The position numbers were made by a program, and so were the translations under genes. Shown piece by piece: positions 11,985-56,335 of a stretch of 64,000 nucleotides of DNA (within the stretch, counting starts at the first letter, position 1; each line of letters begins with the position of its first letter). The notes beneath the pieces are model-generated. The model worked only from the letters and a program-made list of their open reading frames with translations. It searched no databases and was not told where the DNA came from. This DNA is from Roseinatronobacter domitianus. GTDB taxonomy: Bacteria; Pseudomonadota; Alphaproteobacteria; Rhodobacterales; Rhodobacteraceae. The stretch covers positions 17,959 to 81,958 of the forward strand of contig NZ_JALZWP010000001.1 of the NCBI RefSeq assembly GCF_023336755.1. The letters run 5' to 3'.

Positions 11985-13748
11985 TTAGCCTGTGTCACGG
12001 GGTATTGCCGCGTCCTCGAGGCGGAGTTGCGGGGTCTGGCGCCCGCCCCAGAAATTGATTTCAACCTGCCCGGCGAGGTGCAAGTTTCTGCCCTGACGGG
12101 CAGCTATCAGCGGGCCAAGCGGGCTGTCGAAAGCCCCAAAGCAGATTACATCCAGCCGCGTGCCGTCGCCTCCGTTGCACCGAAAGCGCAGATGGGTGTC
12201 CCCCATGCGGCGCGGGTTTTCGATGCGCATGTTGGCCAGCGCGAAGCGCGGGGCAGGGGCGCTGGCTCCGAACGGGCCGGCGGCTTCTAACTGAGCGACA
12301 AGTTCCGGCGTGACGGCTCCGGGCATCAGCGCGCCATCCAGCCGCAGGCTGCGTGGACCTTCATTGCCGGCACCCTGTTGCGCCAAAAGCTCTGCAAGCC
12401 GGTCCATCGCGGCCTCTAGCCCATCGCGCGCCACGGTCAGCCCGGCTGCCATTTTGTGACCGCCGCCCGCCAGCAGCAGGCCTTCGCGCACCAGTCGGTG
12501 TATCGCTGCTCCAAGGTCGACACCGGGCACCGAACGGCCAGAGCCCTTGCCGATCTCGCCCTCCAGCGCGATAACGACAGCGGGGCGGTTGGTCGCTTCT
12601 TTCAGGCGCGCGGCGGCAATTCCGATCACGCCGGGATGCCAGCCATCGCCTGCAGCCCAGGCCAGCGGGCTATCCGTGCCGCGTGTTTCGGCTTGCGCCA
12701 GGGCACTGGCCCGCACGGCGGCTTCAATCTCGCGGCGCTCGGTGTTCAGCAGGTCCAGTCTCGTGGCGAATGCGTCAGCTTCCGCCTCGTCGCGCGTGGC
12801 CAGCAACCGCGCGCCCATGTCGGCCCCCCCGATCCTGCCACCCGCGTTAATCCGCGGCCCGATAACATAGCCCAGATGATAGGCGCGCGGCGCGCTGTCC
12901 AGCCGCGCAATATCCGACAGCGTGCGCAAACCCGGACGGCTGCGGCTTGCCATGACCTTCAACCCCTGTCGAACGAATGCACGATTAACGCCCAGCAGTG
13001 GCGCGACATCGGCCACCGTAGCCAGCGCCACAAGGTCCAGAAGCGTCATGAGGTCCGGGCCTTGTATGCCTTGTCCGCGGCCTTGGCGGTTCGCTTCAAC
13101 CAGTAATAAAAACACCACCCCCGCCGCGCAGAGATGCCCCAGCCCGCCATCTTCGTCCTGCCGGTTGGGGTTCACGATGGCCAGAGCGGGCGGCAGAGTT
13201 TCCCCGCCCAAGTGATGGTCCAGAACGACCACATCCGCTTGTGTTGCAGCGGCCAATGCCTCATGTGCCATGGTGCCACAATCGACGCAGATGATCAGGT
13301 CGTGGTCATTGGCAAGCCTTGCCATGGCGGGGGCGTTTGGTCCGTAGCCTTCTGTCAGGCGGTCGGGCACGTAAAGCGTGGCACCACGGCCCAAGGCCGC
13401 CAGCCAGTCCAGCAGCAGCGCCGCCGAACAGGCCCCGTCCACATCATAATCGGCAAAAATTGCGATGCGTTCGCGCCCGGTCACAGCCTGCAGAATGCGC
13501 GTGGCGGCGCATTCCATCTCTTTCAGGCCACGCGGGTCCGGCAGTAGTGCGCGCAAAGACGGTGTCAGATAATCCTGTGCTGTCTCGGGCGCGACCTCGG
13601 CGCGGGCCAGAATGGCGCAGACGGCGGGCGGCAGGTTGGTCGCTTGCCAGATCGCCTCTGCCTGCCGGTCGCGCGCGACATCCGGGCCGACCCAGCGGCG
13701 CCCAAGCGCAGAGCTCTCGACCCCAAGAAAGGCGCGCGGTTCCGTCAT
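11985..13748 (-). CDS. recJ: Single-stranded-DNA-specific exonuclease RecJ
   Basis: This 587-residue protein matches RecJ, the 5'-3' single-strand exonuclease of recombination and mismatch repair. Motifs are FADYDVDGACSAALL (motif I), CVDCGTMAHEAL, VVLDHHLGG (the DHH motif) and GGGHKMAAGL (the DHHA1 motif), followed by a C-terminal OB-like part. These acidic and histidine residues bind the catalytic metal ions. The length is normal for alphaproteobacteria. Its ATG overlaps the stop of the upstream isochorismatase-family gene by four bases, so it is the last gene of a minus-strand operon with hom and glpX. Confidence 0.95.
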   Translation of the reverse strand: MTEPRAFLGVESSALGRRWVGPDVARDRQAEAIWQATNLPPAVCAILARAEVAPETAQDYLTPSLRALLPDPRGLKEMECAATRILQAVTGRERIAIFADYDVDGACSAALLLDWLAALGRGATLYVPDRLTEGYGPNAPAMARLANDHDLIICVDCGTMAHEALAAATQADVVVLDHHLGGETLPPALAIVNPNRQDEDGGLGHLCAAGVVFLLLVEANRQGRGQGIQGPDLMTLLDLVALATVADVAPLLGVNRAFVRQGLKVMASRSRPGLRTLSDIARLDSAPRAYHLGYVIGPRINAGGRIGGADMGARLLATRDEAEADAFATRLDLLNTERREIEAAVRASALAQAETRGTDSPLAWAAGDGWHPGVIGIAAARLKEATNRPAVVIALEGEIGKGSGRSVPGVDLGAAIHRLVREGLLLAGGGHKMAAGLTVARDGLEAAMDRLAELLAQQGAGNEGPRSLRLDGALMPGAVTPELVAQLEAAGPFGASAPAPRFALANMRIENPRRMGDTHLRFRCNGGDGTRLDVICFGAFDSPLGPLIAARQGRNLHLAGQVEINFWGGRQTPQLRLEDAAIPRDTG

Positions 13749-14305
13749 TGGGTCAATATATCCGTGACTGCGCGGGCGGTGACGAACTCGCCATGCAGAT
13801 GGCTGATCGCTGCGTTATGGATCGCATCTGGTGTCAGGTGCCTTTTGGAAGTGCCCTGCCAGCTTTCATCGGCATTGGCAGCAAAGGCGGCGCAGGCGTC
13901 ATGTGCCAAGATTACCCGAAACCCCAGATTCGCCGCCATGCGGCAGGTTGTGGACACGCAATGCGGTGTGGTCAGGCCCGCGATCACCAGATCGGTCACA
14001 TCTTGAGCGCGCAACGCTGCCTCTAGCCCGGTGCCGATAAAGGCCGCATTTACCGATTTCTCGACGCATGTTTCACCCTCCAGTGGTGCAAGCGCCGGCA
14101 TCCACGCGGTGCCGGTCCCGCTCAGCGGGCTGCCCGGCGTCTTGCTCAGATGGCGCACATGCACAACGGGCGCGCCAGTGGCGCGCCACGCCGTCAAAAG
14201 CCGCGCGGCCTTTGCCTCGGCGTCGGGGTTGTTGCGCGCGCCCCAGGCCGGGTCTTCGAACCCGACCTGAAAGTCAATCAAGACCAAAGCGCAATCCATC
14301 TTCAT
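13745..14305 (-). CDS. Isochorismatase-family cysteine hydrolase
   Basis: This 186-residue alpha/beta hydrolase has the family triad: Asp11 in LVLIDFQ, Lys83 in CVEKSVNAAF and Cys116 in GLTTPHCVSTT. The family splits amides or vinyl ethers (nicotinamidase, isochorismatase, ureidoacrylate hydrolases); the substrate here cannot be told from sequence. The first ATG (14305) lies inside a dispersed repeat element, and a second ATG two codons later (14299) is an equally possible start. The stop overlaps the recJ start. It lies downstream of glpX across a GC hairpin. Confidence 0.88.
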   Translation of the reverse strand: MKMDCALVLIDFQVGFEDPAWGARNNPDAEAKAARLLTAWRATGAPVVHVRHLSKTPGSPLSGTGTAWMPALAPLEGETCVEKSVNAAFIGTGLEAALRAQDVTDLVIAGLTTPHCVSTTCRMAANLGFRVILAHDACAAFAANADESWQGTSKRHLTPDAIHNAAISHLHGEFVTARAVTDILTQ

Positions 14306-14322
14306 CTTGCCTCAAATACTCC
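14301..14322 (-). repeat. Dispersed 3'-end element, copy C (conserved box)
   Basis: Read on the minus strand it is GGAGTATTTGAGGC followed by AAGATGAA, matching copies at 22848-22870, 38491-38512 and 56313-56335. It follows a GC hairpin pair (14331-14366) downstream of glpX and runs directly into the start of the isochorismatase-family gene. Confidence 0.7.
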
Positions 14323-14330
14323 GGGGGAGT

Positions 14331-14366
14331 CCGGCCCGGAACGGGCCGGGCGGGGGCAGCGCCCCC
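14331..14366 (-). terminator. GC-rich hairpin pair downstream of glpX
   Basis: Two stems are present: CCGGCCCG/CGGGCCGG (14331-14338 with 14342-14349) and GGGGGC/GCCCCC (14352-14357 with 14361-14366). There is no T-tract. Together with the conserved box at 14301-14322 they look like a terminator or RNA-stability element at the glpX 3' end. Confidence 0.5.
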
Positions 14367-14377
14367 CTGTGCCGCGC

Positions 14378-21949: not shown

Positions 21950-22800
21950 TCTTCCTGAACTCTGAACTGACCAATTCCGAGCGTGGACCAGAAGCGCGCT
22001 TCCAGATCGTGCCCATGCCGCTGGAGAAAACCGTGTCCTACGGGTCCGGCACAGCCAACGGCCCGGCCGCGCTGATCGAAGCCTCTGACCAGTTGGAACG
22101 CCTGTGGCGCGGGATGGAACCTTGCGCGGCAGGCATTTACACCACTCCGCCCATCGATTGCGAGCAACCGCTTGACGCGGCGCTGGATGCATTGGCCGCG
22201 CGCACCGAAGGAATAGCGCGGGCCGGGCAAATTCCGGTCACTTTGGGCGGCGAGCACAGCCTGACATGGGCTGCGGCGATGGGTGTGTCGCGCGCGCTTG
22301 GCCGACGCATCGGGATTGTCCAGATCGACGCCCATGCCGACTTGCGCCGCGCCTACCAAGGGTTCCGGCATTCTCATGCCTCTGTCATGCAGCTTCTGGT
22401 CGAGGAAGAGGGCATGGCGCTGGCGCAATACGGCGTGCGGGCGCTATCCTCCGAAGAGGCCGCTTTGCGCGAAGACTTGGGCGTGACCTATATTGACGCG
22501 GAAGAACTGGTCATGGGCAATATCACCGAGGTCACGCTGGCCGATGACTTCCCCGAAGATGTTTACATCACCTTCGATGTCGATGGGTTGGACGCGCCCT
22601 TGATGCCCGCAACCGGCACCCCAGTGCCGGGGGGCTTGGGGTATTACCAATCGCTGGCGCTGGTGCGCTCGGCGCTGAGGGGACGACGCTGCGTGGGCAT
22701 CGATGTGGTCGAACTGGCGCCCATCGAAGGCGCGGATGTGTGGGACTTCACCGCCGCGCAACTGACCTATGCGCTGATCGGGATTGCCCAAGGGGGCTAG
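21946..22800 (+). CDS. speB: Agmatinase
   Basis: This 284-residue ureohydrolase hydrolyses agmatine to putrescine and urea with two manganese ions. Metal ligands appear in LGGEHSLTWAAA, QIDAHADLRRAYQG and YITFDVDGLDAPLMPATGTP, and GIDVVELAPIEG is the usual C-terminal signature. It starts within the nspC stop (ATGA). With speA it supplies the putrescine used by the dehydrogenase encoded two genes upstream, completing an arginine-to-spermidine route without S-adenosylmethionine decarboxylase. A GC hairpin follows the stop. Confidence 0.95.
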   Translation: MIFLNSELTNSERGPEARFQIVPMPLEKTVSYGSGTANGPAALIEASDQLERLWRGMEPCAAGIYTTPPIDCEQPLDAALDALAARTEGIARAGQIPVTLGGEHSLTWAAAMGVSRALGRRIGIVQIDAHADLRRAYQGFRHSHASVMQLLVEEEGMALAQYGVRALSSEEAALREDLGVTYIDAEELVMGNITEVTLADDFPEDVYITFDVDGLDAPLMPATGTPVPGGLGYYQSLALVRSALRGRRCVGIDVVELAPIEGADVWDFTAAQLTYALIGIAQGG

Positions 22801-22818
22801 GGGGCGCTCGCGCCCCCT
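22799..22818 (+). terminator. GC hairpin at the end of the polyamine operon
   Basis: AGGGGGCG (22799-22806) and CGCCCCCT (22811-22818) pair perfectly around CTCG right at the speB stop. No T-tract follows. A conserved box (22848-22870) follows 30 bp later, the same arrangement as at three other 3' ends in the window. Confidence 0.55.
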
Positions 22819-22847
22819 CTGGGGGCTGTCGCCCTCATTCACCCCCT

Positions 22848-22870
22848 GAGGATATTTGGGCAAGGATGAA
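22848..22870 (+). repeat. Dispersed 3'-end element, copy A (conserved box)
   Basis: GAGGATATTTGG followed by GCAAGGATGAA lies 30 bp after the hairpin at the speB 3' end. It matches the boxes at 56313-56335 (same strand) and at 14301-14322 and 38491-38512 (minus strand). Confidence 0.7.
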
Positions 22871-22943: not shown

Positions 22944-22965
22944 TGGGGCAGCTAATCAAGGATGA

Positions 22966-25389
<2,424 letters not shown>

Positions 25390-38490: not shown

Positions 38491-38512
38491 TTCATCTTGC
38501 CCCGAATACTTC
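38491..38512 (-). repeat. Dispersed 3'-end element, copy D (conserved box)
   Basis: Read on the minus strand it is GAAGTATTCGGGGC followed by AAGATGAA, matching the three other copies. It follows the hairpin at 38513-38527 downstream of the Imm11-like gene and precedes pgpA. Confidence 0.7.
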
Positions 38513-38527
38513 GGGGGGCAGCCCCCC
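38513..38527 (-). terminator. GC hairpin of element copy D
   Basis: GGGGGG (38513-38518) and CCCCCC (38522-38527) pair around CAG, about 100 bp downstream of the Imm11-like stop. It has no T-tract, like the hairpins of the other three copies. Confidence 0.45.
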
Positions 38528-38627
38528 CACGTTCAACCGCCCTTACAGCACAAATCCGCGCGCTGCGCGATGCCTTCTGCATGGGCGGTCACCCGGACGG
38601 CGCGCGCCTTGTGCCCGTGGCCATCTT

Positions 38628-56267: not shown

Positions 56268-56301
56268 GGGGGCGTTGCCCCCGACCGACCCCGTGCCGGG
56301 G
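56268..56301 (+). terminator. GC hairpins after the DUF815 gene
   Basis: GGGGGC/GCCCCC (56268-56273 with 56277-56282) and CCCCG/CGGGG (56289-56293 with 56297-56301) lie between the convergent DUF815 and putA genes, followed by the conserved box at 56313-56335. There is no T-tract. Confidence 0.5.
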
Positions 56302-56312
56302 CCGGCCTCCCC

Positions 56313-56335
56313 CAGGATATTTTTGCAAGGATGAA
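56313..56335 (+). repeat. Dispersed 3'-end element, copy B (conserved box)
   Basis: CAGGATATTTTT followed by GCAAGGATGAA, the closest match to copy A at 22848-22870. It lies 66 bp after the DUF815 stop and five bases from the convergent putA stop. Confidence 0.7.

Follow-up and report, generated by a model that had tools for sequence, protein, structure and literature searches.

A conserved gene-end element of Rhodobacteraceae that joins a two-variant box to a pseudoknot, possibly folded in single-stranded DNA

What is the GC-rich hairpin with a conserved box that recurs behind four genes in a single stretch of the Roseinatronobacter domitianus genome, and on which strand and in which molecule does it take its form? 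The stretch analysed here, 64,000 nucleotides long and referred to as the window, carries this arrangement behind genes that Pfam assigns to the arginase family (speB), DUF815, FBPase (glpX) and Imm11. The first-pass annotation had placed one box behind each of these genes, and all four were found there; the consensus that it quoted fits only two of them (speB and DUF815), because the glpX and Imm11 copies represent another variant. The box of this genome has two variants, A (GGATATTTNNGCAAGGATGAA) and B (GAGTATTTNNGGCAAGATGAA), and is a non-palindromic sequence of ~21 bp whose two blocks stand about one helical turn apart around a free NN centre. The speB and DUF815 boxes are exact copies of GGATATTTNNGCAAGGATGAA; shuffling the window 100 times produced this sequence 0.01 times on average and never as often as twice. 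The glpX and Imm11 boxes follow (G/A)AGTATT(T/C)NNGGCAAGATGAA, the former as exact B and the latter with two mismatches to the B pattern. Across the whole assembly (3.36 Mb, 55 contigs), allowing at most 3 mismatches, we found 40 matches to box A and 60 to box B, and none to either in backward-read controls. Our working set of 100 distinct copies consists of 60 B copies and 40 A copies, two of the latter being longer by one base; the A copies at C1:402265 and C1:402419 (C1 denotes a contig) lie outside it. The last ten letters of box A, CAAGGATGAA, occur a second time in the window at 22957-22967, before a gyrase B-like start at 22972, where they probably serve as a ribosome-binding site.

Upstream of the box, the order from 5' to 3' is a G-run, a loop, a first C-run (C-run1), an optional second hairpin, a second C-run (C-run2), a short tail and then the box. 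In the speB copy (plus strand), stem 1 spans 22800-22817, with the G-run at 22800-22804, the loop CGCTCGCG at 22805-22812 and C-run1 at 22813-22817, and the G-run starts on the final G of the TAG codon that ends speB. The second hairpin region (22818-22841) holds a G.T wobble on the plus strand, and its stems differ in four relatives. C-run2 (22842-22846) and the tail TGA (22847-22849), whose GA is complementary to the TC of the loop, lead directly into an exact box A at 22850-22870. The DUF815 module (56268-56314, plus strand) is built in the same order from a G-run (56268-56272), the loop CGTTG (56273-56277), C-run1 (56278-56282), a second hairpin (56283-56308), C-run2 (56309-56313) and the tail A (56314), which is complementary to the middle T of the loop; its box A (56315-56335, exact) lies 4 bases from the end of a convergent proline/aldehyde dehydrogenase (putA-like) gene. 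On the minus strand, the glpX module (14322-14367) consists of a run of 6 G (14367-14362), the loop CGCTG (14361-14357), C-run1 (14356-14352), a second hairpin (14351-14328), C-run2 (14327-14323) and the tail G (14322), complementary to the middle C of the loop, followed by an exact box B at 14301-14321 that overlaps the possible start of an isochorismatase-domain gene (13745-14305). The Imm11 copy, also on the minus strand, has a plain G/C hairpin (38513-38528), with neither a second C-run nor a pseudoknot, next to the divergent B box AAGTATTCGGGGCAAGATGAA (38491-38511). The hairpin thus comprises more than the GGGGGC/GCCCCC of the earlier description, as the three copies other than Imm11 carry a second C-run directly 5' of the box, within the very stretch that had been taken for a spacer.

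Genome-wide, this module could be parsed in 37 of 40 A copies and 19 of 60 B copies, i.e., in 56 of 100, leaving 44 copies with the box and no parsed pseudoknot. Directly 5' of box B, in copies of this genome that lack the pseudoknot (e.g., L055, L226, L054 and L039), the short modules GCCTCCGGCGG, CGTGTCGT, GCGTCAT and GGATTTT recur. In the fold statistics, related sequences are counted repeatedly except where distinct pairs are named. C-run1 and C-run2 have the same length in 182 of 206 parsed elements from our own and related loci (shuffle mean 89, maximum 111 in 10,000) and all three runs agree in 155 of the 206, using a parser that favours equal runs. A nearest-run rule lacking that preference gave equal C-runs in 258 of 293 elements (shuffle mean 119, maximum 145 in 10,000) and three equal runs in 220 of 293. 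The tail of 1-4 bases after C-run2 is complementary to the hairpin loop. For C-N-N-N-G loops with a one-base tail, the middle base of the loop is the complementary one in 127 of 130 elements, compared with 51 and 67 for the flanking positions, and under the nearest-run rule the same holds for 183 of 187 five-base loops, viral loci included. Longer tails, of 2-4 bases, were scored as distinct loop/tail pairs, the first base of a 3-4-base tail being dropped where necessary; 33 of the 38 are complementary, whereas 5000 shuffles averaged 15.3 and never exceeded 26. The loop/tail rule is obeyed in 89 of 89 rows from five further genera, in 48 of 49 elements from viral contigs and, under strict one-base scoring of another set of five-base loops, in 68 of 74 rows. 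Because loop and tail covary in this way, the module is, on the evidence of covariation, an H-type pseudoknot; the box, the G-run/C-run1 pairing, the loop/tail complementarity and the matched runs are established at the level of sequence.

When triple-run modules were collected irrespective of the box (contigs C1 and C2), 28 were found; the loop/tail rule is obeyed by 14 of them, a box accompanies 13, and 10 combine the two. The corresponding numbers in the reversed control are 13, 4, 0 and 0. At two loci, L302 and L318, two tandem G-run modules precede a single box and each tail fits its own loop by eye, so a module can occur without a box of its own. A scan of the window with Rfam returned only two tRNAs at gathering scores, and across 14 loci it gave three matches, all far below gathering scores.

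We then consider where the element stands. Gene context was taken from a purpose-made codon-usage gene finder, which gave a clear context for 91 of the 100 copies; the other nine were flagged inside a predicted gene and set aside. Calling a copy sense or antisense when it lies between two co-directional genes in or against the direction of the box, we counted 38 sense and 27 antisense copies; another 26 lie between convergent genes and none between divergent ones. As a baseline, spacers of at least 60 bp in 786 kb (C1:1-400000 and C2) number 198 between co-directional genes, 48 between convergent and 100 between divergent ones. The absence of all 91 copies from divergent spacers bears out the proposed association with gene 3' ends. 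The further claim, that the box always runs in the sense of the upstream gene, describes all four window copies and breaks down genome-wide, where the antisense and convergent copies stand beside the sense ones; a strict sense bias, which the first-pass annotation had itself named as the genome-wide test, did not appear (38:27, p = 0.21, not significant). Copies with a pseudoknot tend to sense (22:10). Boxes and G-runs frequently lie a few bases from a stop codon, several G-runs begin on the stop codon itself, and in several convergent copies the element fills the entire intergenic gap. One antisense copy, at C1:94638, lies between two same-strand genes, the downstream of which we take, from its translated start, to encode a product that begins like BchB. 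A role in replication polarity was set aside, since in two genomes, over 1.49 Mb, no relation between box orientation and GC skew was apparent by eye.

A separate arrangement consists of two boxes facing inward, 150-171 bp apart, on either side of a conserved stretch around CCGATGACCGCCAAGGGTGAAAGCACCGCG (L008:1501-1675, L039:1342-1522, L061:4129-4300, L070:5285-5455, L142:353-544 and L143:603-774). Similar box pairs occur in L146, L290 and L293, with the stretch on the opposite strand by eye. In the two loci scanned, L008 and L039, the CCGATGACCGCCAAGGGTGAAAGCACCGCG stretch had no Rfam match, and it is perhaps a new small RNA.

Which strand folds is indicated by the loops and by the wobble pairs. 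Inside the second hairpins, the box strand shows 13 A.C and 3 G.T wobbles (13 and 4 in a second count), so that the wobbles are mostly G.T when read on the opposite strand; these counts include related sequences and carry little weight alone. Control terminators, a noisy set, show the reverse, with 54 G.T and 30 A.C. Triloops on the box strand read TNC in 58 cases and GNA in 1, which places GNA triloops on the opposite strand. Scored with DNA parameters, 152 hairpins give the opposite strand the greater stability in 113 cases and the box strand in 11, with 28 ties, whereas with RNA parameters the same 152 hairpins leave the strands unseparated (55 vs 49, 48 ties). The preference for the opposite strand recurs in further genera (37:1 of 38 with DNA and 9:1 with RNA parameters) and in viral contigs (18:0 of 18 and 6:1, respectively), while 50 hairpins of T-tract terminators from two genomes, used as a control with DNA parameters, divide into 15 antisense and 20 sense. 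Since the preference is alike in the three gene contexts (13:2 with 3 ties in ++, 16:0 in +-, and 7:0 with 1 tie in --), it follows the box and not the gene. From these observations we infer that the strand opposite to the one read in the first-pass annotation folds, as single-stranded DNA; the wobbles (13 A.C vs 3 G.T) and the TNC loops (58 vs 1) speak against a fold on the strand read there. As the RNA parameters hold, to our knowledge, no bonus for these triloops, RNA of the opposite strand may be the folded molecule instead. Folding of gene-sense RNA was rejected as the only explanation, given that the loop preference is not tied to gene direction. The argument from GNA triloops leans on a 2002 item that appears in the reference list of PMC5090098.

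This strand preference bears directly on another reading, a lineage-specific family of intrinsic terminators in which RNA of the strand read in the first-pass annotation would form the hairpin, TATTT(TT) would supply the U-tract and the box would be a conserved downstream part. The order of hairpin and TATTT is correct, TATTT belonging to the box consensus and the NN spacer being TT in 39 of 100 copies; the slot of the module is taken by a plain hairpin, some with a T-run, at L048, L222, L233 and the G159 orthologue of C1:351139, and the sense lean of the pseudoknot copies also fits. However, this reading must accommodate 27 antisense copies, copies between terL and portal, and a next start codon at most 30 bases from the box in 25 of 38 ++ copies (with starts as placed by our gene finder), which leaves scant room for a promoter; moreover, the loops favour the other strand even in ++, which those of the control terminators from two genomes do not. 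We regard a terminator family as unlikely to explain the element as a whole, and as a possible account of at least part of the copies. A related proposal is that the element acts in mRNA, its GC hairpins protecting or processing transcripts of either strand and its box providing an AU-rich site for an RNase E-like enzyme. The palindromic stems can form in RNA of both strands, the copies adjoin stop codons and sit between genes, and GTATT/ATATT of the box fits the RNase E motif, RN-WUU; yet the strand with the stable loops is fixed relative to the box and not to the gene, and neither the long conserved half of the box nor its lineage dialects would be explained. A role in mRNA thus worded seems to us improbable.

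Returning to the fold in single-stranded DNA, the module leaves one G-run beyond those paired in the stem, and this extra run perhaps lies alongside the stem as an antiparallel purine-motif G*G-C triple helix in the major groove. The idea comes from the geometry, the matched run lengths and the co-occurrence of an A-T step: in some stems with such a step the third run has an A at the corresponding position, and where there is a second hairpin, C-run2 is preceded by A in 74 of 76 elements that have a flanking A-T pair and by T in 73 of 86 that have none. The co-occurrence may also be due to linkage within subfamilies.

Conservation was followed in a syntenic relative, G159, at ~85% DNA identity over 700 kb. 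Of our own copies, 28 of 99 could be placed there, and the box stands at the orthologous place in 17 of the 28, in the same orientation in all 17; the other 11 orthologous spacers have no recognisable box, some being visibly decayed, including that of the window glpX copy. In 16 same-type pairs, 2 of 304 box letters have changed, compared with 12 of 32 in the NN spacer, so that the box is, judged by its substitution pattern, under selection, as had been suggested. Stems are exchanged at the same place (e.g., GGTCCC/GGGACC for GGGGCC/GGCCCC), and at C1:89404 a box B of our genome faces a box A in G159 within similar flanks, showing that the two variants can replace each other. The speB locus keeps its element in G015, G160, G167 and G159 with four different second hairpins; one base is changed in the G015 box, and in G166 the element has decayed. 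The glpX box is altered in G015, G160, G167 and G159. At the DUF815 locus the parser found a box in 9 of 30 loci, some of them incomplete: box A occupies the same place in our genome, G167, G015, G159 and G160, and a remoter group with another hairpin has box A in G002, box B in G017 and G022, and an altered B in G171. As G002 has 35 A-like copies (at most 3 mismatches) and no B copy within 2 mismatches, the dialect there follows the genome.

These comparisons also weigh on the suggestion that the box is a miniature mobile repeat, or more broadly that the element is a REP-like or attC-like repeat of structured DNA, mobile or selfish, that survives only where it is harmless. Its many copies, their occurrence in both orientations and outside divergent spacers, the single-strand folding preference, the recurrence of some second-hairpin sequences at several loci and the dialect-like boxes would all suit such a repeat. 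Place and orientation are nevertheless kept between species while stems are new yet still paired, and the box is under selection. The Y1/TnpA-REP transposase family (PF01797) is absent from 16 element-bearing genomes, our own included, and occurs in 2 of 16 other genomes and 5 of 14 named control genomes; the folding strand has GTAG in 8 of 100 copies, compared with 21 in shuffled copies, i.e., no enrichment, and it has no attC-like core pair. With the DUF815 copy as query, no phage record was found at E 0.01, and a single weak, partial match came from a Streptomyces plasmid. Because place and orientation persist while stems are replaced, and because the transposase family is absent from those 16 genomes, a miniature mobile repeat is unsupported, and we give the broader selfish-repeat reading little credence.

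How widely is the element spread? Its pattern occurs in 57 of 120 Rhodobacteraceae genomes (one per genus; per-genome counts include overlapping matches) and in 0 controls, in keeping with the mention in the first-pass annotation of similar boxes in other Rhodobacterales, and a freer box pattern matched 5 of 14 genomes that had failed the stricter one. Among the matches listed, exact box A was found in Roseibaca, Roseinatronobacter, Rhabdonatronobacter and Natronohydrobacter, and single exact-A matches in unrelated bacteria, again among those listed, may be due to chance. The conserved downstream half varies by lineage (e.g., CAAGGATGAA, CCAGAATGAA, CAAAGATGAA, CAAGAAGAAG). Exact box B is present in 4 viral contigs and the full element in 48, with 50 pattern matches of which 49 were parsed. 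Homologues of both terL and portal are found on 38 of the 48, and on 25 contigs a copy lies between these two genes (e.g., L395:1719-1747 and L405:12503-12534; L413 is loosely placed), 19 in sense and 6 in the opposite orientation, which we count as orientation tolerance. On two of these contigs a check with PHROGs identified terL, portal and major head genes, arranged in this order, and we take these for gene-transfer-agent clusters; since the viral contigs carry such genes, the copies on them were not counted as proof of phage mobility. The genes of RcGTA form one cluster, driven from upstream of g1. RcGTA operons and an RcGTA promoter are mentioned in passages of PMC9638019 and PMC6854486.

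Dialects of this kind would also be expected if the box alone were functional, as the double-stranded target of a genome-wide system for DNA binding or uptake, and the hairpins were incidental. Its non-palindromic, two-block form with a free centre, the 44 of 100 copies that lack a pseudoknot and the lineage dialects, which resemble those of uptake sequences, speak in this direction; the coupling of loop with tail and of run lengths is, however, itself kept, orientation has no relation to GC skew by eye, and ~100 copies are far below the number of known uptake sequences. We consider a self-sufficient box very improbable.

The reading that we tentatively favour, with less than even confidence, is that of a selected, DNA-encoded family of gene-boundary elements whose members would serve as partial barriers or topological insulators in either orientation. 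Several features can be read from the sequence itself, namely which strand has the stable loops under DNA parameters, the location at 3' ends, the tolerance of orientation and the conservation at orthologous sites; from there a mechanism can be sketched. As a polymerase transcribes through the site and opens the helix, the strand complementary to the one first read would fold; the tail would pair into the loop, and the extra G-run would lie along the G-run/C-run stem, perhaps as the G*G-C triple helix. A putative protein would hold the asymmetric duplex box, and the complex could form a partial barrier or topological insulator, tolerant of orientation, at gene boundaries, like E. coli BIMEs, thereby separating convergent genes and tuning expression between neighbours. 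Against a pure insulator, which predicts no sense lean, counts the lead of sense among pseudoknot copies (22:10) and between terL and portal (19:6). A more specific and rather doubtful version holds that a strand-specific, triple-helical single-stranded DNA pseudoknot, with antiparallel G*G-C along the G-C stem, and a dialect duplex box are read together by a putative protein to mark gene boundaries, with copy numbers that range in many Rhodobacteraceae from tens to roughly a hundred per genome. We know of no DNA-structure-based punctuation system of this kind in any organism. If the favoured reading is true, selection in a large bacterial family maintains an element at gene ends that may function as folded DNA and not as RNA, with a base-pairing code (loop, tail and matched runs) that is testable by compensatory mutation. 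Its part in clusters that resemble gene-transfer agents, in which copies recur between terL and portal, would be testable as well. A box-binding factor could be traced because the box dialect changes between lineages. Even as a terminator family, the element would call for a new model of gene ends in these bacteria.

Comparison with known systems delimits the element further. DNA uptake sequences of Neisseria and Pasteurellaceae have lineage dialects, a place at gene ends and tolerance of orientation, at >1000 copies; our element is alike in these three traits, whereas its box is longer and split and is present at ~100 copies. Intrinsic terminators likewise place a GC hairpin ahead of T-rich DNA where genes end; the element departs from them in its antisense copies (27 of 65 co-directional ones), in the conservation of its downstream half, in having its stable loops on the other strand and in its copies inside gene clusters. 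Integron attC sites are likewise folded single-stranded DNA 3' of genes; the element has no core pair and no arrays were seen, and membership was rejected because 0 of 100 copies have the RYYYAAC/GTTRRRY pair on the folding strand. No description of the element was found among the full-text matches listed, in a search that covers few subscription journals. The two Rhodobacterales motifs named in passages of PMC8632094, at ccoP-ccoG and cysS, occupy different places from the element, and the passages of PMC12306157 and PMC1590033 contain no mention of Rhodobacter. STAXI, described in PMC2864571, is a bacterial motif that also has a pseudoknot and whose possible form as single-stranded DNA was discussed, and that paper applies the same loop argument for RNA versus DNA; STAXI is tandem, lies near DNA-handling genes and has UUCG loops that argue for RNA, whereas the loops of our element fit DNA rules, on the opposite strand. 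Membership in the REP/RAYT group was rejected on the missing GTAG enrichment and the absence of PF01797 from the 16 bearing genomes. The closest functional parallel is nonetheless offered by the BIMEs of E. coli. Like the REP/BIME sequences of enterobacteria, the element has ~100 dispersed intergenic copies at gene ends and in intercistronic spacers, in both orientations and with a single-strand hairpin; unlike them, it has a pseudoknot with matched runs and a separate 21-bp box. Titles in the reference list of PMC8266576 speak of gyrase cleavage and transcription attenuation at BIMEs. On our best reading, by analogy, the element would work like an E. coli BIME while being a different kind of sequence.
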